Origin: Halichondria panicea
Lineage: Eukaryota > Porifera > Demospongiae > Suberitida > Halichondriidae
Reading direction: 5' to 3'
NCBI RefSeq assembly: GCF_963675165.1
Contig: NC_087386.1
Span: forward strand, 3,102,169 to 3,166,168
DNA length: 64,000 nt
This document shows, one piece after another, positions 3,980 through 18,219 of this stretch; the stretch's first letter is position 1, and the number at the start of each line of letters is the position of its first letter. The position numbers were made by a program, and so were the translations under genes. The notes below the pieces were generated by a model. That model saw only the letters and a program-made list of their open reading frames with translations, had not been told where the DNA came from and did not search any database.

Positions 3980-5740
3980 AACAAATGTTCAGGGTTTCCG
4001 TTTACGAATCACTGCTCTCGGAAAGTCAACAAGTTCTAGTCAATTAAAGTAACCTCAGAATTGTAAACTTGGGTATATAATTATATAGGTATTAATTGAT
4101 ACATGCTTGTCTAAGAACAGCACTGAACATTTTCAGGGTCAAGTTCCGCACTGCATGCTCTCGGAAAGTCTGAAAAGTTGCTCAGCATGTTCCCAGTCAA
4201 TTAAATTAACCCGAGAAGAGTGTATCAATGTATTGGTTGATACCTGCTGGTCTAAAACCAGCACTAAATATATTTTCTGGGTTTCCGTTTACGAAGCACT
4301 GCTCTCGGAAAGTCTGAAAAGTTGCTCAGCAATTTCTTGTCGATTAAAGTAACCTCAATCTTAATTGGGCATATCAACGTATTGGCTGATATACCTGCTT
4401 GTCTAAGACCATGCAGCACTGACCATATTTTCAGGGTTTCCGTTTACGAATCACTGCTCTCGGAAAGTCTGAAAATTTTCTCAGCTATAGTTCTTGCTCA
4501 GCAAGTTCCAATCGATTAAAGTAACCTCAAAATTGTAAACTTGAGTATAATTATATCAAATACTGGCTGATATCTGCATGCTGAATATATTATTTTTCAG
4601 GGTTCCCATTAACGAACCACAGCTCTCGAAAAGTGAAAAAGTTGCTCAGCAAGTTCCAGTCGATTAAAGTAACCTCAGAATTGTGACTTGAGTATAATTA
4701 TATAAAATACTGGCTGATACCTGCATGCATGTCTATAGACCAGCACTGAATATGTTATTTTTCAGGGTTCCCGTTAACGAACCACAGCTCTCGGAAAGTC
4801 AGAAAAGTTGCTCAGCAATTAAGTTCCCAGTCGATTAAAGTAACCTCAGAAGAGTCATATTGGCTGATATCAGCATGCATGCATGTCTAGACCAGCACTG
4901 AATATATTGTTTTTCAGGGTTCCCGTTAACGAACCACAGCTCTCGGAAAGTCAGAAAAGTTGCTCAGCAAGTTCCAGTCGATTAAAGTAACCTCAGAATT
5001 GTAAACTTGAGTATATATATCAACATACTGGCTGATATCTGCATGCATGTCTAGACCAGCACTGAATATATTGTTTTTCAGGGTTCCCGTTAATGAACCA
5101 CAGCTCTCGGAAAGTCAGAAAAGTTGCTCAGTAAGTTCCAGTCGATTAAAGTAACCTCAGAATTGTAAACTTGAGTATATATATCAACATACTGGCTGAT
5201 ATCTGCATGCATGTCTAGACCAGCACTGAATATATTGTTTTTCAGGGTTCCCGTTAACGAACCACAGCTCTCGGAAAGTCAGAAAAGTTGCTTAGCAAGT
5301 TCCAGTCGATTAAAGTAACCTCAGAATTGTAAACTTGAGTATATTTATCAACATACTGGCTGATATCTGCATGCATGTCTATAGACCAGCACTGAATATG
5401 TTATTTTTCAGGGTTCCCGTTAACGAACCACAGCTCTCGGAAAGTCAGAAAAGTTGCTCAGCAAGTTCCAGTCGATTAAAGTAACCTCAAAATTGTAAAT
5501 TTGAGTATCACTGAATATATTCAGGGTTCCCGTTAACGAATCACTGCTCTCGGAAAGTCAGAAAAGTTTCTCAGCAAGTTCCAGTATACATAACTTATTG
5601 GCTGATACTTGTCTATAGACCAGGACTGAACATAATTATTTCAGTTCCCGTTCTCGAACCATTTTTCTGACTTTCTGAGAGCCATGATTCATGGCTCTCA
5701 GAAAGTCAGAAAAGTGGCTCGGCGTGTTCAGTAGAGCCAA
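3980..5740. repeat. Tandem array of ~160 bp units, about 12 copies
   Basis: The core ACAGCTCTCGGAAAGTC recurs near 4014, 4160, 4310, 4459, 4622, 4784, 4937, 5101, 5267, 5430 and 5546, mostly 150-166 bp apart. It is followed each time by a block ending in TCGATTAAAGTAACCTCA. Units at 4740-5500 are nearly identical while the left units are more diverged. No coding potential is seen; ORFs here are repeat read-through. This is a minisatellite/satellite-type array of unknown function. Confidence 0.9.
5663..5713. repeat. Perfect 25-bp hairpin with a 1-nt loop at the array end
   Basis: TTTTCTGACTTTCTGAGAGC at 5663 continues to 5687, and its exact reverse complement runs 5689-5713 with only T5688 between. 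The arms contain the tandem-unit core (CTCTCGGAAAGTC-like), so the hairpin was formed by two array units in head-to-head orientation. Confidence 0.9.
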
Positions 5741-6118: not shown

Positions 6119-6969
6119 TAATAAAGCTTAGATAGAAATTGAGATGCAAAAAGATGCTTTCGATTGACTCTGCTTTTTCAAACAAGGAATACTTCGATAT
6201 GATAAAATCTTTATTTTCATTTGTCATAGAGCTTGGCAATATCATGAGTGTTTGGCGGAAATCAGCCACAGGTATTTGTTTCTCAGTTATTTCTTTGAGA
6301 GCCACCTTTCGTAGATCCATAAACCTTGTTTCAAATTTGTTTATGCAGTCAGCAGTTGTAGTGCCTAATAAAATGAAATGTACATGAGTTATCAAAACTA
6401 CGTTAAAAGATTACCAGAGGTGATAGTCTATCTATTGTACTGTCAGAAACAATAATTATCAAGTTCTTGATAATATTGAATCCATGCATAATTATACGGA
6501 GCTACTAACCTGGTGCAGGTGACAAGGACACAGCGTCTTCTTTATTCAGCTCACTGGCTTGTGTCTGGATGACTGGAGCACAAGAAATGATGAAAACACA
6601 GATTGTAGCTATTTATAAAGTAACTCACAAGTCCTACACACTTGGTCAGCCAAAGCTCCTTCACGAAGACTAAGCAAAATCTTCAACAACGGCCGATAAG
6701 TGAGGTCAACGATTTTGTATTCCCATTTCTTCAGAGCTTCATACATGGCCTGTTGATTGCCAATCCTAAAGGCACAATCCTTAAGATCCTCTATATCGGC
6801 ATTATTGAGATCAAACCCTAAGCTTCTATAACAAACTTTTTATAGCTGCCAAGTACACCAGCCAGGCTCCACAATTGTTCCTGCTCAATTCTTTGGTCTA
6901 GCTGGGTGTCTGTTACCCCAGTCTTCTGCTTCAGAGTATCAATATCAATATTGAGCTGGCTATATCTTG

Positions 6970-8184
6970 AATATGGAGTGCCGTTTGTATCAAAATCCTT
7001 TTTTTAAGGAACATTGTCCACGAGAAGGCGCTATTCCTCGAGCCACAGATATTTACTAAACATCCGTCTTATAAAAGCAGTGCAAACAGTAAAAAGCAGT
7101 GATATTTAGTAAAAAGCAGTGATATTTAATAAAAAGCAGTGATATTTAACTAAAAAGCTTAGTAAAAAACAGTGATGTTTAGTAAAAAACAGTGATATTT
7201 AGTAAAAAGCAGTGATGTTTAGTAAAAAGCAGTGATGTTTTAATAGTAAAAAGCAGTTAAAAAGCAGTGATGTTTAGTAAAAAGCAGTGATGTTTACTAA
7301 AAAGCAGTGATGTTTAGTAAAAAGCAGTGATATTTACTAAAAAGCAGTGATGTTTACTAAAAAGCAGTAGTAAAAAGCTTAGTAAAAAACAGTGATGTTT
7401 AGTAAAAAGCAGTGATATTTAGTAAAAAGCAGTGATGTTTAGGCCACTCCAAGTGATACTCTGGTTTCTGGTCCTGAAGTTTTTCTAATTGCATGCGGGC
7501 GGGCGGCTTTTCTCATTATGTCATTATCAATTTCACCTTATGAATCTCATTATTTTGCAAATGAATATCATTATCACACTATTTTGTACCGCATGGACCA
7601 TTCTGCGCATGCGTAGTAGAAATAATGAGATAGAAATCCAATAATGAGATAGAAATCCAAGAATAAAATCTGATGCGGGCGGTGGACCAGAAACCAGAGT
7701 ATCACTTGGAGTGGCCTTACTAAAAAGCAGTGATATTTAGTAAAAAGCAGTGATATTTAGTAAAAAGCAGTGATGTTTACTAAAAAGCAGTGATATTTAC
7801 TAAAAAACTTAGTAAAAAACAGTGATATTTAGTAAAAAACAGTGATGTTTAGTAAAAAGCAGTGATATTTAGTAAAAAGCAGTAATGTTTAGTAAAAAGC
7901 AGTTAAAAAGCAGTGATGTTTATTAAAAAGCAGTGATGTTTACTAAAAAGCAGTGATATTTAGTAAAAAACAGTAATGTTCAGTTAAAAAGCAGTGATGT
8001 TTATTAAAAAGCAGTGATGTTTACTAAAAAGCAGTGATATTATTTTAGTAAAAAGCAGTGATGTTTAGTCCTTCGACCTACTTGTATATTTGACGACCAT
8101 AACTAATATCACTGCTTTTTAGTAAACATCACTCACATGACTGCTTTTTACTAAAAAGGATTTTGATACAAACGGCACTCCATA
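6970..8184. mobile_element. 1.2 kb inverted-repeat element filled with a 20-bp minisatellite
   Basis: Terminal inverted repeats of about 32 bp face each other: TATGGAGTGCCGTTTGTATC at 6972 and its reverse complement ending at 8184. The insertion is flanked by CTTG (6966-6969 and 8185-8188). The uninterrupted gene copy at 10731-10755 shows the empty site with a single CTTG. The inside is mainly a degenerate array of AGTAAAAAGCAGTGATGTTT (about 7064-7440 and 7722-8068), with one unit inverted near the right end (8100-8150). There is no ORF. It is a non-autonomous element; the superfamily is not clear from a 4-bp duplication alone. Confidence 0.85.
7442..7716. mobile_element. Nested 275-bp MITE, PIF/Harbinger-like
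   Basis: It has perfect ~33-bp terminal inverted repeats starting GGCCACTCCAAGTGATACTC at 7442, mirrored to 7716. TTA lies on both sides (7439-7441 and 7717-7719), and 3-bp TTA/TWA duplications are typical of PIF/Harbinger. It interrupts the 20-bp minisatellite, so it inserted later. No coding sequence is present. Confidence 0.8.
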
Positions 8185-8571: not shown

Positions 8572-10755
8572 TCACTCGACTCGTCTTGTCGATGAGAGAC
8601 TCATTGGTGATATTTCGTATCCGAATGATTGTTCATCGATTAATAGTTCATCGATTAATAGTTCATCTAGATGTGATACATAATCAGACTCCGCAGAGCT
8701 TGGTGCTAATGTGGTATGACATGAAGTGTATGAAGACTGCAAGTAGATTGGTTCCTTGAGACGGTCAATCACAGTCATGGTAGCAGTGGGTGGAAGCTGG
8801 TCGTGAATTGAAGTGAAGATATTTTGCACGGACATAGAAGAGGATGCCAGTTCGTCCCATATGCCAGTCACTCTTCTCATGATCTCATCACTGAGATAAC
8901 TAATAAAACCAATAATGTAGTTTTCCCAGATTGCTTCAATGAACTGAAAAACATGGTGTTTAGAAGAAAAGGAAACGAACAAAAATATTTTTGGGTTGTT
9001 GGCAAGGTGTGTGGCAATAGGAGGGAATAGTGGTGCCATAATATCTTCCTTGATGTTGATGTCACCACAAGCAGTGTGCAGATCATTACCCTCTCCTCTT
9101 CCAGATACCGACACTATTATGGGGTGGTGTTTCAGCTTAACAAGATCTACAGCTTGCATGTATGCCTTTAGTGTTAGTTTATCTCGAGGCTCGTATACAG
9201 CAAATCTCAATGTATCCATGAGCATGTATGTAAAGATCAACGAATGATTTGTTGCAACAATAGCAAGTCCACGATGATTAGGTTCGAGGTCAATTGTTCG
9301 CTTCATTTCATCCGCTATCCTTTGATGTGGTTTAAGAGAGGTCACAGCTTCAGCTCCAATCATAGCACCACCAGATCCCTCTATACCTGATTGACTAACC
9401 TGTAGAGAAAAATTCATTGGATAAGGAGCAGAATTAAACACTTACCTTTACCATCGGGTAGAGACATTTTCCTTCGAGTGATAGTTTGAGAATATTGTTG
9501 CTTAAAAAGAAAGAAGCTGTTTTCTTCTGCACTTGATCACTGATCATTGCTACTACAGCAGCAGGCACTAGCCATGTAACCAGTAGTGAGCTCTCCTGGA
9601 GGTCAAACAAAGAAAGGGCTAGCGGGGAGAGCAAGCACCTTTTGGCAAGGCCTTTCCTGTACGTGTCTACGTCTTCAAGAGTTGCAGTCTGAACATCACA
9701 AGCAAATTTCGCTTTGATACGAGAGTAACCAACAGGAGTATCTGAATTTCTAGGAAGATGGCCAAGTGCTTCGCTAACGGGGGTGTTCATTCTGAAGTGT
9801 CTCATGTCTTCTGCATAGCTGCTCATGTCTCGTTTCAGACTATCACTACCAAATTGCTCTATGATATGCTCAAGAAGGCTGAAATCAATAAAACTCAGGT
9901 AGAAATTGAGATGCACAAAGATGCTTTCGATTGACTCTGCTTTTTCAAACAAGGGATATTTTGATATGATGAAATCTTCGTTTTCACTTGTGATAGGGCA
10001 TGGTAAATTCATGAGTGTTTGGCGAAAATCAGTCACAGGTATTCGTTTCTCAGTTATCTCTTTGAGAGCTATCTTTCGTAGATCCCTAAACCTCGTATCA
10101 AACTCTTTAATGCGGTCAGCAGTTGTAGTGCCTATGATTATGTTATGATTACCCTATCAAAGCTACGTTAAAGCTGTACCTGTCGCCAAGGAATTTGGTA
10201 TGTCATGAATTGGTGGCAGTGATATTCTACCTATGGTACAATAACAATTAATTGATAACGAATCCATAATTGTACTGAGCTACTAACCTGGTGCAGGTGA
10301 CAAGGACACAGCGTCTTCTTTATTCAGCTCACTGGCTTGTGTCTGGATGACTGGAGCACAAGAAATGATGAAAACACAGATTGTAGTTATTTATAAAGTA
10401 ACTCACAAGTCCTACACACTTGGTCAGCCAAAGCTCCTTCACGAAGACTAATCAAAATCTCCAACAACGACCGATAAGTGAAGTCACGGATGACATTTCC
10501 CCATTTCCTTAAAGCTTCACACATGGCCTGTTGATTTCCATTACGCTTAGAGGCAATGGTCTCCAGATCTGCTATATCGGCATTATTGAGATCAAACCCT
10601 GGCTTTCTAACAAACTTATTGTAGCTGCCAAGTAAACCAGCCAGGCTCCACAATTGTTCCTGCTCAATTCTTTGGTCTAGCTGGGTGTCTGTTACCCCAG
10701 TCTTCTGCTTCAGAGTATCAATATCAATACTGAGCTGGCTATATCTTGTAGCCAT
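8572..10755 (-). CDS. Death-domain protein with a catalytically dead caspase-like domain
   Basis: Four exons join in frame to 641 aa: 10755-10407, 10350-10288, 10131-9446 and 9399-8572 (stop TGA). Residues ~20-110 look like a death domain (amphipathic helices and the conserved Trp in EALRKWG). Residues ~140-365 form a helical middle region I cannot name. Residues ~405-590 follow the caspase p20/p10 order: HRGLAIV, then YEPRDKLT, then IIVSVSGRGEG where SHG is expected, then PKIFLFVSFSS where PKLFFIQACRG is expected, then a p10-like FQFIEAIW...DRLKEPIYL. The catalytic His and Cys are thus replaced (Cys by Phe), and the stretch between the first strand and YEPRD is much shorter than in active caspases. 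By family knowledge it would act as an adaptor or decoy in apoptosis or innate signalling; that role is inference. The C-terminus repeats ELLID twice through a 15-bp DNA duplication. A partial copy lies downstream. Confidence 0.8.
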
Positions 10756-10981
10756 CTTGTAGCCTCGAGGCCAGACTCCTCCCCGGGTCAGATCACGTGC
10801 TATTCTGTCTCCGCTTCTCTACTCAGTTTTTGTTGATGATCTGCTTGCCCAGCTACAGCGGCCTAGGTGCAATGGTTGGCTCAGTCCACTGTCCCTCCCC
10901 AATGTATGCAGACGATCTTGCTCTCATTGCGGACTCACCTGAAGGGTTACAGAAGCTTCTTGATATCGTCTCTCATTATAC

Positions 10982-11747
10982 CAGAGATACAAAAGAAAGG
11001 GGATTGGAAACGAAATTTTTACGAAATTTTTGCGTGAAGCATTCCGTGTTATAGGGCGTGGCTAAAACTACAAAGGATTATATTTATAGTCAGCATGCTC
11101 ATTACCAGTCTTGACTGCTCTACAATGTGCTGTACATAGAAACAGTGAAATTGATCATTTTTAATGTTGATTTTTCTAAAAAGTAAAGAGAATTTAGCTC
11201 TAAAAAGTCGACTAAGCCATGCAGCCACTATTACTAGACAAATAAATGCTATGCAAGAAGAAATAGCCTTTACTATGAAGTCGTAGGAGGGACAGGCCCG
11301 TGGCGTGTCTAAAAGTATACTAAAGCAGTTTGAAGGACTATACTGCAAACGTTTATGAACAGTACAGCTTATTTATAGCATGAAGCCATTCTATGTAGCA
11401 CTTAGATACATAATAACCAAGTCAAGCAATGTCCTTTGCTGTTTTGACTTCACAGGAGGGACAGAGAAAAGTTGACATAGAGTAATTCAAGCTAAACTCA
11501 AAAAAATTGGAAACAGAGTAAAGACAACGGACTTAGAGCTTGTCAGTGGTATAAGCTTACTTCTCTCAAGTATCTCCCAGGCCCTGAGTGATCTCTAGTG
11601 GATAGGAGAGCTAGAAACCAGGGATACAAAACTTTTCCATGTAATTATTTGCGAGCGCAATAATTACACGGAGTGCTTCACCGGATGTCAGTCCTTTTAC
11701 ATAGGGCGTGGGCGGTCGTTTCCAATCCCCTTTCTTTTGTATCTCTG
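10982..11747. mobile_element. TIR element 1 inside the LINE (non-autonomous)
   Basis: Perfect ~30-bp terminal inverted repeats: CAGAGATACAAAAGAAAGGG from 10982 and its reverse complement ending at 11747. The direct repeat ATTATAC lies on both sides (10975-10981 and 11748-11754). The TIR core GGATTGGAAACG resembles element 2. No usable ORF was found. Confidence 0.8.
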
Positions 11748-14370: not shown

Positions 14371-15600
14371 GTATTTGGTGAATCAACAAGGTCACGTACC
14401 TCTGGACGCCAGTCCTGTTCCTTCTCTGTTTGCTCGGAAATTATCCAGGAGGTAGATAGTTACAAACACCTTGGTGTCCTTCGCTTAGTGTCTACTTCTG
14501 GCTCCCTCAGAATCTCGGGACGCTGCTCAGCGGGTAGGAGTGCTTCTTTGCCCTGAACTCTGTGGGCGCAAGGTTCGGCTGCCTCCACCCAATCACCTCT
14601 CACAAGCTTTACTCCTCACTCTGCCTTCCAATTATGCTCTACGGATCAGAACTCTGGTCCCTAACAAAGAGCGATCTCAACATGTTGGAGAGAACTCACA
14701 GGAAACTACTTTGCACAATTCAAGGCCTGCCTACCAGATGTCCGTCACTCACCCTCACCAGCCTTATTGGCTCGTTGGAGATCTCGGCATTGGTGGACTG
14801 CAGACAGCTTTGTTTCATTAACTCTGTTGCATGCATGTCTTCAGAAGATCTCCCGAAGAAGATTATGGTAAAAAGACTTCTTGCTGACTCTCCATCCAGT
14901 CTGTTAAAAACATGGTCCACACTCGTCTCATCTCGTTGCTACTCTTCACTCTCGTCTATGATCGCAAACGGGAAAAACAAAGGATCTTTTAAGGCAGCTG
15001 CAAAGAAATTTGTACTAGTCACGCAATACATCAAGATGACAGACACATGCACAAATCTCCCTATCTCATCCCTCCCCGCCCATCTAGGTCGCCCTTCGAT
15101 GCTATGGTCATGCTGTCAGCTGGATTGTTCTCTGCATGGCCCCTCAAATTTCAGAATCAGGCTCCTAGTGGGCTGTGACGGGCTGGAGCTGGATGCGTCC
15201 AGGTTTAGATACCGCAACAGAGGAAATATCTCTCCCGGGGATGCATCGTGTAAACTATGCAACACTGAAGAAGAATCACCTTCACACTTTTTAGTAAGTT
15301 GCCCTGCTCTCTCAGCGTGCAGACATGTTCTCCTGCAGGATGCCCCAACCTGCGTCAGTGTTCACCTCCCCCACGACCCAAGGGCACTACATGACACCCT
15401 CTACAATCTCCTGCAAGGCCTTGTCTGGCTGAAAGCTGCCCACGCGCAAGAGTGGCTCTTGCTCTTCATCAAAGATCTAAGGCAAACCCGCGCTGATCTC
15501 CTTCTCACACGCACATTGGTTTAAAGCTCCACCCTCTTGCTGCGTGTTATAATACCCAATTTCAATATTCTTTTTTGTCTGCCCAATGGGCTACTCTTCA

Positions 15601-16852: not shown

Positions 16853-18219
16853 ATGGACACAATCATACTGGACAATGGGGGATATTCTCTGAAAGTTGGT
16901 GGCTCTCCTAGCGACTCACCCAAAGTTCTTCCTAACTGCATAACCAGGTTTGTTCGATCAAAAATCTATGATCAAAGCTAGTCTCTGCAGTTCTGATAAT
17001 TATAAATCACTACAATAATAATTTAGGCATTTTAAACCCTAAATGAATTGGTAGGCTTTGTAGTGTTATCTAGTGTTATCTAGTGTGCTAACACAGCTGC
17101 CTTTATCCATGCCACAGGTCAAAAACTGAGCGTCGAAAGAACTTCATCTCAAATCAAGTCGACGATTGTAAGGACCTCTCTGGTCTCTATTACCTTCTTC
17201 CGTTCCAAAAAGGCTACCTGGTCAATTGGGACACTCAACGACAAATATGGGACTATGTGTTCGGGCAAAACATTCTCAACATCAAAACCTGCAATCACTC
17301 GCTAATTGTTACTGAGCCGATTTTCAATTTTTCTTCAATCCAAGAAAACATGGACGAGATTTTCTTTGAAGATTACAAATTCCAGGCTCTTACAAGACTA
17401 CCTTCATCTACACTGTCATCGCACAATTACTCGCACACGCATTCCAATACTCTTTGTACTCTAGTGGTTGACAGCGGCTACTCCTTTACACACATTGTCC
17501 CACATTTCAGAAACAAGATGATCCCAAACGCTACGCTAAGAATCGATGTTGGTGGAAAACTTCTCACCAACTATTTGAAAGAGACAGTGTCTTATAGACA
17601 GCTCCATGTTCTGGACGAAACGTATGTGATGAATCAAGTGAAGGAAGATGTCTGTTATGTGTCGGGGGATTTTCGGAAAGAAATGCTGTCTACACATGAT
17701 AGGGGCAACTCAATTTCGTGCGAGTACGTCTTGCCGAACTTTAGCCACCACAGAAGAGGGTACGTAAAAGATCGCGAAGATAAGACAAAGAACATGGACG
17801 AGCAAAGTTTGGTGCTTGGTGTAGAGAGAATAGCAACTCCAGAGATTCTTTTTTACCCTTCAGACATTGGAGTCGAACAGATGGGTATTCCTGAAGCCAT
17901 TGTGCACTCTATATCACTGACTCCCAAAGAGATGCATCCTCATCTTTACTCTAATATTGTCTTAATGGGGGGGAACGCCATGTTCAGTGGGTTGAAAGAT
18001 CGAGTGGAAGATGAGGTCAGAAAGTTGGCTCCCTCGGACTATACTGTCTGTGTTACTGCGGGTGATGATCCGATCACGTACTCGTGGTTTGGTGGGAGGG
18101 TTGTGGCTGACGAGACGAGTGATGTGGAACCAGTCACATCTGCGGAGTACAAGGAGTTTGGCCAAAACATTTGCCTGAGGAAATTTGGTGAACAGATAAC
18201 TTGGTGTCCTGACATGTGA
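16853..18219 (+). CDS. ACTR6: Actin-related protein 6
   Basis: Two exons, 16853-16947 and 17118-18219, give 398 aa (human ARP6 is 396). Exon 1 encodes the N-terminal phosphate-loop strand IILDNGGYSLKVG. Exon 2 contains LPFQKGYLVNWD, VVDSGYSFTHIVP, INVGGKLLTN-like IDVGGKLLTN, YRQLHVLDETYVMNQVKEDV and IVLMGGNAMFSGLKDRV, all in the order and spacing of ARP6. ARP6 is a nuclear subunit of SWR1/SRCAP-type remodellers that exchange H2A.Z; this is family knowledge. The ATG at 16853 was chosen because the family begins M-x-T-x-(I/V)-LDNG; an in-frame ATG at 16787 would add 22 unrelated residues. The gene converges on GUSB with a family-B element between. Confidence 0.95.

Follow-up and report, generated by a model that had tools for sequence, protein, structure and literature searches.

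The window, by which we mean the whole stretch of 64,000 nucleotides of Halichondria panicea DNA analysed here, sits on contig C10 of the genome searched (131 Mb, 39 contigs). It carries one spliced gene on the minus strand, reading from a start codon at 10755 to a stop at 8572, as an earlier sequence-only reading of this DNA had correctly placed and framed it. The four exons proposed in that reading (10755-10407, 10350-10288, 10131-9446 and 9399-8572) are bordered by GT/AG signals and are all in phase, giving a protein of 641 amino acids. Their number is likely to be five, because a tandem array of 15 homologous genes on contig C8 has, in 10 of its members and between exons 2 and 3, peptides that weakly match (E 0.002-0.15) a further 51-nt exon at 10230-10180 (exon 2b), and the five-exon model of 658 amino acids is therefore favoured. 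The features are as follows.

10407..10755, minus strand: exon 1, with start codon and probable death domain, 116 amino acids; open frame, donor GTGAGT
10288..10350, minus strand: exon 2, linker of 63 nt, phase 1/1, placed by splice signals
10180..10230, minus strand: exon 2b, probable extra exon (predicted), 51 nt, phase 1/1, AG/GT flanks
9446..10131, minus strand: exon 3, middle region M; residues 1-~125 helical in the model, ~135-228 TRADD-N-like by pattern
9727-9446, minus strand: TRADD-N-like part of exon 3, residues ~135-228, so called from motif and architecture only
8572..9399, minus strand: exon 4, putative catalytically dead caspase-like domain, variable tail and stop
9282-8737, minus strand: caspase-like domain within exon 4, residues ~40-221, from hhalign to GHG caspases and residue states
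9211..9252, minus strand: L1, hypervariable loop after strand 1, exon-4 residues 50-63
9061..9105, minus strand: former His loop, exon-4 residues 99-113; catalytic His position at codon 9099-9097, Arg
8938..8976, minus strand: former Cys loop, exon-4 residues 142-154; catalytic Cys position at codon 8970-8968, Phe
8863..8901, minus strand: L3, hypervariable loop after strand 5, exon-4 residues 167-179, with insertions in some paralogues
6120..6970, minus strand: relic of a truncated second copy, with broken exon 1, exon 2, and exon 3 residues 1-81

A 15-bp repeat in 2.5 perfect copies (8631-8667) encodes the DELLI motif that occurs twice in the C-terminal tail. Around the gene, a reverse-transcriptase-like YADDL frame on the plus strand (10752-11054), with no Pfam match, abuts the 5' end, and two further plus-strand frames follow, one that looks like the C-terminus of a non-LTR retroelement (14538-15524; zf-RVT, weak at E 0.0018 and below cut-off) and one of 375 amino acids belonging to the actin family (17092-18219; PF00022, E 3.4e-67), perhaps an actin-related protein. 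Tandem repeats of 155-164 bp and of ~20 bp (TTAGTAAAAAGCAGTGATGT) occupy 4156-5508 and 7073-8069, where they flank and separate the two gene copies. A sigma-70 promoter scan, which is not designed for such a genome, returned nothing.

The gene belongs to a family. Exon 4 has 33 matching pieces genome-wide, and on contig C8 15 tandem copies lie within 45.5 kb in one orientation, each in the order exon 1, exon 3, exon 4, at a spacing of 2.3-3.3 kb (mean 2.9 kb). Exon 1 homologues are present in the 15 array copies, the exon 2 peptide is 86-100% identical across all 15, and the last intron is kept short (47-48 nt, beginning GTAAGT) in nine of the ten array copies inspected. More copies occur on C11 and at other places on C8, and ~0.2 Mb from the window, on C10, there is a divergent subfamily. 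At one locus of this subfamily (L074) the middle region and the dead caspase share a single open frame, and in L062 they do likewise up to the frame end, so that the two parts are tied together in one protein. That the caspase-like exon is part of the same gene, as first proposed, is supported by an exon order repeated in 15 tandem copies and by the single frame of L074, and its assignment to another gene was rejected. At L074 (positions 236-2439 of that locus, minus strand) a second dead-caspase frame lies downstream of this one, perhaps forming tandem dead-caspase domains. In three array copies (A07, A10 and A05, at L018, L022 and L023) an internal duplication of ~30-38 residues after strand 5 lengthens the L3 region.

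Not all copies are whole. The three large exons are each covered by one unbroken match in 6 of the 15 array copies; in the remaining nine at least one of these exons has a gap or a broken frame, for which assembly error and true damage are alike possible; part of the array may therefore be decaying. The second window copy (6970-6120) is a truncated relic in which tblastn found no exon 4, and for this reason the two window copies share the middle region over 81 residues only, not over the full ~230 that the sequence-only reading had taken to be common to both; genome-wide, many copies do match it over its full length. The broken array copies and the truncated window copy, as well as the weak constraint over much of exon 4 (see below), speak for a reading in which exon 4 drifts unconstrained after the loss of activity and the array is a graveyard of duplicated adaptor genes. 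We regard this as improbable in view of the selection analysis, to which we return.

Caspase homology of exon 4 had to be sought with profiles. A Pfam search of the exon in the window gene returned no family, Peptidase_C14 (PF00656) matched none of 14 members of the exon-4 family at thresholds up to E 10, and the 33 pieces which the same model matched across the genome did not include exon 4. A family profile (A1), built from 14 of the 17 longer exon-4 loci and omitting the three with insertions (L018, L022, L023) and short pieces, nonetheless aligned by hhalign to four GHG-type caspases of the same genome (A4: L078, L079, L080 and L081, four of the six fetched) with Prob 96.8 and E 2.7e-10 over 153 columns, extending into the small subunit. 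When the other two (L076, L077) were added, the values were Prob 94.7 and E 6.2e-8 over 142 columns, with the register unchanged. Against eight canonical caspases (A2, taken from 8 of the 33 Peptidase_C14 places) the same profile gave E 5e-5 at a probability of 67% over 90 columns, which contain both catalytic segments. A variant profile (A6), in which two distant members were swapped in for two close ones, reached E 1e-9 with the four GHG caspases and E 2.7e-5 with the eight canonical ones. Searched against the PDB (177,635 sequences, E <=10), A6 had two matches only, both to caspase-3 (E 0.41 and 1.1), which are not significant alone but point to the right family; A1 retrieved two LysR regulators instead (E 1.2 and 1.3), and the four GHG caspases themselves matched PDB caspase-3 at E 1.8e-25. 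The best-matching intact relatives found for the dead family are L078, L079, L080 and L081, the first two being AGHG/DACRG-type caspases with 60% mutual identity. The single-sequence AF2 model of exon 4 has a pLDDT of 35, and the caspase-like fold is accordingly proposed on sequence profiles. These comparisons bear out the caspase homology suggested earlier for the C-terminal part, and the shortening noted after the first strand, where caspase-3 shows a 13-residue insertion in the alignment.

The same alignments set the register of the catalytic positions. SGRG of the window gene aligns to AGHG of the GHG caspases and KIFLFVSF to KLFFIDAC, therefore placing Arg at the position of the catalytic His and Phe (exon-4 residue 144) at that of the Cys. 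Both residues are thus missing, as the sequence-only reading had claimed, although it had matched SGR to SHG, a register which we rejected and replaced with that of the profile alignment. Across the family the readings at these positions differ from copy to copy. Among 20 aligned copies (C11:5221137, the C8:2394 kb pieces, L062 and the first L074 dead caspase being omitted), the His position holds H in four and R, V, L, I, D, Y, F or Q in the others, and where both sites can be read (19 copies), three retain His, one retains Cys and none retains the pair. The survival of His in 4 of 20 copies and of Cys in 1 of 19 could suggest that some copies are still enzymes by means of a different residue set, an explanation which, with the pair of an active caspase present in 0 of 19, we consider very improbable indeed. 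The genome has active-looking caspases elsewhere: the eight canonical ones aligned, of the 33 Peptidase_C14 pieces, retain His and Cys. An active-looking caspase (L075 2287-3504, minus strand; THG, QSCRR; PF00656 E 2e-31), with a long N-terminal part, adjoins the divergent dead-caspase genes on C10.

The N-terminal part was read at first as a death domain, and we would call exon 1 a probable death domain because of its match to PF00531 (E 8e-4) and the place of the exon. The match scores 19.9 bits, below the cut-off of 22.6, and among eight homologous exons, which include those preceding kinases, only that of the window matches PF00531 with E up to 1. Searching the PDB with the eight exon-1 homologues retrieved no death domain up to E 1, and hhalign of exon 1 to two death-like repeats of another locus (L067) was negative (E 0.28).

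The middle region M has 94 matching pieces genome-wide and is joined to more than caspases. At two loci (L066, L058) a protein kinase comes after it (Pkinase E 3.1e-33; PK_Tyr_Ser-Thr 9.5e-23), and on contig C7 an open frame of M runs on into NACHT (E 2.3e-11). The two kinase loci (L066 934-3024 and L058 735-3073, each with an exon-1-like frame and M before the kinase) occupy neighbouring places at ~2.0 Mb on C8. When the positions of 66 distant M matches were set beside those of 30 Death and 14 NACHT matches selected from the genome-wide ones, four were seen to have Death just upstream and one to have NACHT 2.6 kb downstream. NACHT, the mark of an NLR, was found by Pfam in none of exons 1, 3 and 4 of the window gene, in a genome with at least 148 Death and at least 102 NACHT matches. 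In the single-sequence AF2 model of exon 3, block means reach 72-93 at residues 1-40, 61-70 and 81-110 and are low elsewhere.

The sequence-only reading had left this region unnamed, and no profile names it: Pfam gave no useful family for exon 3 and its family, and a PDB search with the middle-region profile (A3, from 12 of the 30 exon-3 loci) gave nothing. Its place and a motif nevertheless fit the module described in the sponge Amphimedon, where proteins combine a death-like unit, a TRADD-N domain of the NCOA6 clade and a variable C-terminus such as a kinase or caspase (Kaur et al. 2021, PMC8195603). The mark given there for TRADD-N is a tiny residue with Ser in the turn that joins strand 2 to strand 3 (PMC8195603); in the second half of exon 3, ESS or GS can be seen by eye at the expected turn, and a death-like exon lies upstream of M, as expected for such a module. 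No TRADD-N family was found in 12 middle-region members up to E 10, PF13820 had no match genome-wide and none in any control either, and PF20694 had no match to M and one sub-threshold match elsewhere, on C5. Since no TRADD-N model confirms M, we keep the label at "TRADD-N-like" for a region that appears to fit the Death-TRADD-N module.

The exon-4 alignment alternates fixed scaffold segments, in which many residues are invariant, with highly variable loops at caspase pocket positions. Four of these (L1, the His loop, the Cys loop and L3) we take, on general caspase anatomy, to be the pocket loops; their borders were drawn after inspection of the alignment and before a label-free site model was run. 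That model was self-written (GY94, F3x4, M1a vs M2a) and gave numerical warnings in the alternative-tree, subset and gap-filter runs. The exon-4 set comprised 15 copies and 181 codons, omitting A01, A03 and A08 (frame breaks) and the divergent C10x and C10y; as controls served exon 1 in 13 copies (A08 and A10, split, and A09, with an internal stop, omitted) and exon 3 in 11 (A02, A04, A05, A06, A09 and the non-array copies except that of the window omitted).

By pairwise counts in the 15 copies, omega is 1.40 (bootstrap 1.01-1.95) for the loops and 0.71 (0.51-1.02) for the remainder of exon 4. M2a is preferred to M1a with 2dlnL 199, an omega2 of 5.4 and 22% of codons in the selected class, and the posteriors are 1.000 at the codon of the lost His, 1.000 at that of the lost Cys and 0.980 at the codon before the Cys. 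The 26 sites above 0.95 include 19 in the four loops, and 24 lie in wider segments that would open, by the caspase topology we assume, on the catalytic face, a count which is a description and not a test, because the sites were already known when these segments were picked. On a tree built from the scaffold only 2dlnL is 212 and on one from the loops only 170 (range over the three trees 170-212), and on the two other trees the sites above 0.95 number 18/55 in the loops vs 7/126 elsewhere (Fisher 4e-6) and 23/55 vs 6/126 (3e-9). Selection is not confined to the loops, because the rest of exon 4, tested separately, alone yields a class above 1 (2dlnL 62.6, omega2 7.3, 7% of codons; loops 42.5); the selected codons outside the loops are 72, 75, 97, 161, 181, 186 and 205. 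The adaptor exons are constrained and show no significant class above 1, with omega 0.56 in exon 3 (2dlnL 3.5, p 0.17) and 0.49 in exon 1 (2dlnL 4.7, p 0.097), where codons 29 and 36 still exceed 0.95.

The features of the data which can inflate such tests have to be weighed here, as the family stands in a tandem array, its loops carry indels and several nodes of the tree are poorly supported (16-27% at four of them). A signal produced by gene conversion or misalignment, in a family of dead caspases that had merely diverged, would account for these results without selection. Gene conversion was addressed by way of alternative trees, control exons and tree-free counts only, and these agree: the three trees are concordant, the control exons of the same family are flat, and in six disjoint pairs counted without a tree, pN exceeds pS in the loops (0.319 vs 0.203, p 4e-4), the two being about equal elsewhere in exon 4 (0.080 vs 0.093), where constraint among array pairs is only weak. 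With respect to alignment, the signal survives, reduced, in gap-free columns (2dlnL 158, His codon included) and also with a buffer of two columns around gaps (2dlnL 75), which leaves the His and Cys codons outside the tested set and in which loop enrichment is weaker (4/15 vs 5/105, p 0.014). In 24 null simulations under M1a, with branch lengths fixed and one starting point each, the maximum was 4.34. We thus consider an artefact quite improbable, a shade more so than decay of the duplicates.

As to decay, relaxed constraint predicts omega near 1, not about 5, and would hardly leave exons 1 and 3 constrained or so many scaffold residues of exon 4 invariant. The signal moreover persists in the seven copies unbroken in all three large exons (2dlnL 87), as in a nine-copy set (118) and in eight array copies (91). 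The His codon exceeds 0.95 in all three of these sets and the Cys codon, which is gapped in 5 of the 15 copies, in none of them. Removal of gaps and omission of broken copies therefore weaken the signal and do not abolish it, and codons of the former catalytic loops, that of the lost His included, are under strong diversifying selection with an omega of about 5.

Considered together, the best explanation, which we hold tentatively and at somewhat less than an even chance, is a signalling adaptor in which the dead active site now serves as a hypervariable surface for recognition or as a decoy. Such an adaptor would consist of a probable death-fold domain, a middle module common to kinase and NACHT proteins and a caspase-like domain that does not cut, the caspase scaffold presenting a hypervariable surface to something itself variable. 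The likeliest ligand would be a microbial factor aimed at caspases, in which case the domain would act as a decoy, or a microbial or non-self ligand, in which case it would act as a receptor, and the conserved N-terminal module may relay the binding to partners with death folds. Viruses carry inhibitors acting at caspase active sites (PMC11383037), and blockers of this kind could be caught or sensed by a dead caspase whose pocket keeps changing, its death-fold part signalling onward; recognition of self and non-self would be a second route to maintaining pocket variety. A wider proposal, possible and put forward with more reserve, is that of a sponge intracellular recognition system in which the array encodes interchangeable receptors, the former catalytic face is their hypervariable binding site, diversity is driven by microbial conflict or by self/non-self recognition, and the death-TRADD-N-like module couples them to cell death.

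The chief rival, which we judge unlikely though well ahead of the other alternatives, is a regulator similar to cFLIP, in which the dead domain would tune active caspases of its own cell, one or several, by pairing with them, its variation reflecting different partners. The layout of a probable death fold with a dead caspase argues for it, caspases that could be so regulated are present in the genome (33 Peptidase_C14 pieces, with the eight aligned keeping His and Cys), and both cFLIP and a mosquito decoy are described as regulating active caspases (PMC7586951, PMC3141678). The selected sites, however, fall on the pocket loops, which would not suit one conserved partner surface, and the inactivating residues vary among the copies, those of FLIP(L) being described as conserved (PMC7586951). 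The sequence-only reading, which had proposed an adaptor or decoy, is partly supported, its death domain being weak; the large family and the diversifying pocket it did not foresee, and because of these two a recognition or decoy surface suits the data better than a single cFLIP-like regulator.

Several parts of this picture are already known, namely dead caspases joined to death-superfamily domains, as in cFLIP, and the architecture class of Amphimedon. Like cFLIP(L), the window gene would combine a death-superfamily domain, here below cut-off, with a caspase fold that lacks the catalytic residues (PMC7586951). According to that account cFLIP(L) has tandem DEDs, is encoded by one gene beside caspase-8 and conserves its inactivating changes (PMC7586951), whereas here the domain set is another, the genes form an array and the inactivating changes are specific to each copy. 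The Amphimedon proteins, as described, share the order of an N-terminal death-like unit, a module of TRADD-N pattern next to it and a fast-evolving C-terminus, as well as caspase and kinase C-termini and a lineage-specific expansion (PMC8195603). In that work the caspase is counted among potential enzymatic effectors (PMC8195603), while the catalytic pair is missing here in every readable copy; the present family differs from that class also in having a pocket under diversifying selection, and M is TRADD-N-like by its motif, no TRADD-N profile matching it.

Other comparisons are more distant. A caspase-like decoy of mosquitoes is likewise a duplicated inactive caspase homologue (Bryant et al. 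2010, via PMC3141678), and the passage on it in the latter source makes no mention of a death domain, of a middle module or of a hypervariable array (PMC3141678). Primate CASP1 and CASP5 resemble the family as caspases under positive selection (PMC11383037); they are active enzymes, and for caspase-1 no concentration of selection near the active site is reported (PMC11383037), opposite to the pattern found here. In Dysidea avara NLRs, DEATH is joined to a receptor part (PMC12909245), as M is joined to NACHT elsewhere in this genome, although no NACHT was found in the window gene; the numbers of Death and NACHT matches given above agree with the published sponge picture as presented in that work (PMC12909245). 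New in the present case is diversifying selection on the former catalytic loops, with no significant signal in the exons of the probable death domain and the middle region. For an array of dead caspases with a diversifying pocket we found no report in the open-licence literature, and one elsewhere in print is possible.

The signature of an enzyme family is the conservation of its catalytic residues, and here it is reversed, the pocket being the most changeable part of a domain in which much of the scaffold is fixed. If the proposed reading is true, an ancient protease fold would have been turned into a variable receptor, offering a new example of a pseudoenzyme used in recognition, and sponge immunity or allorecognition would gain a concrete, testable gene family.
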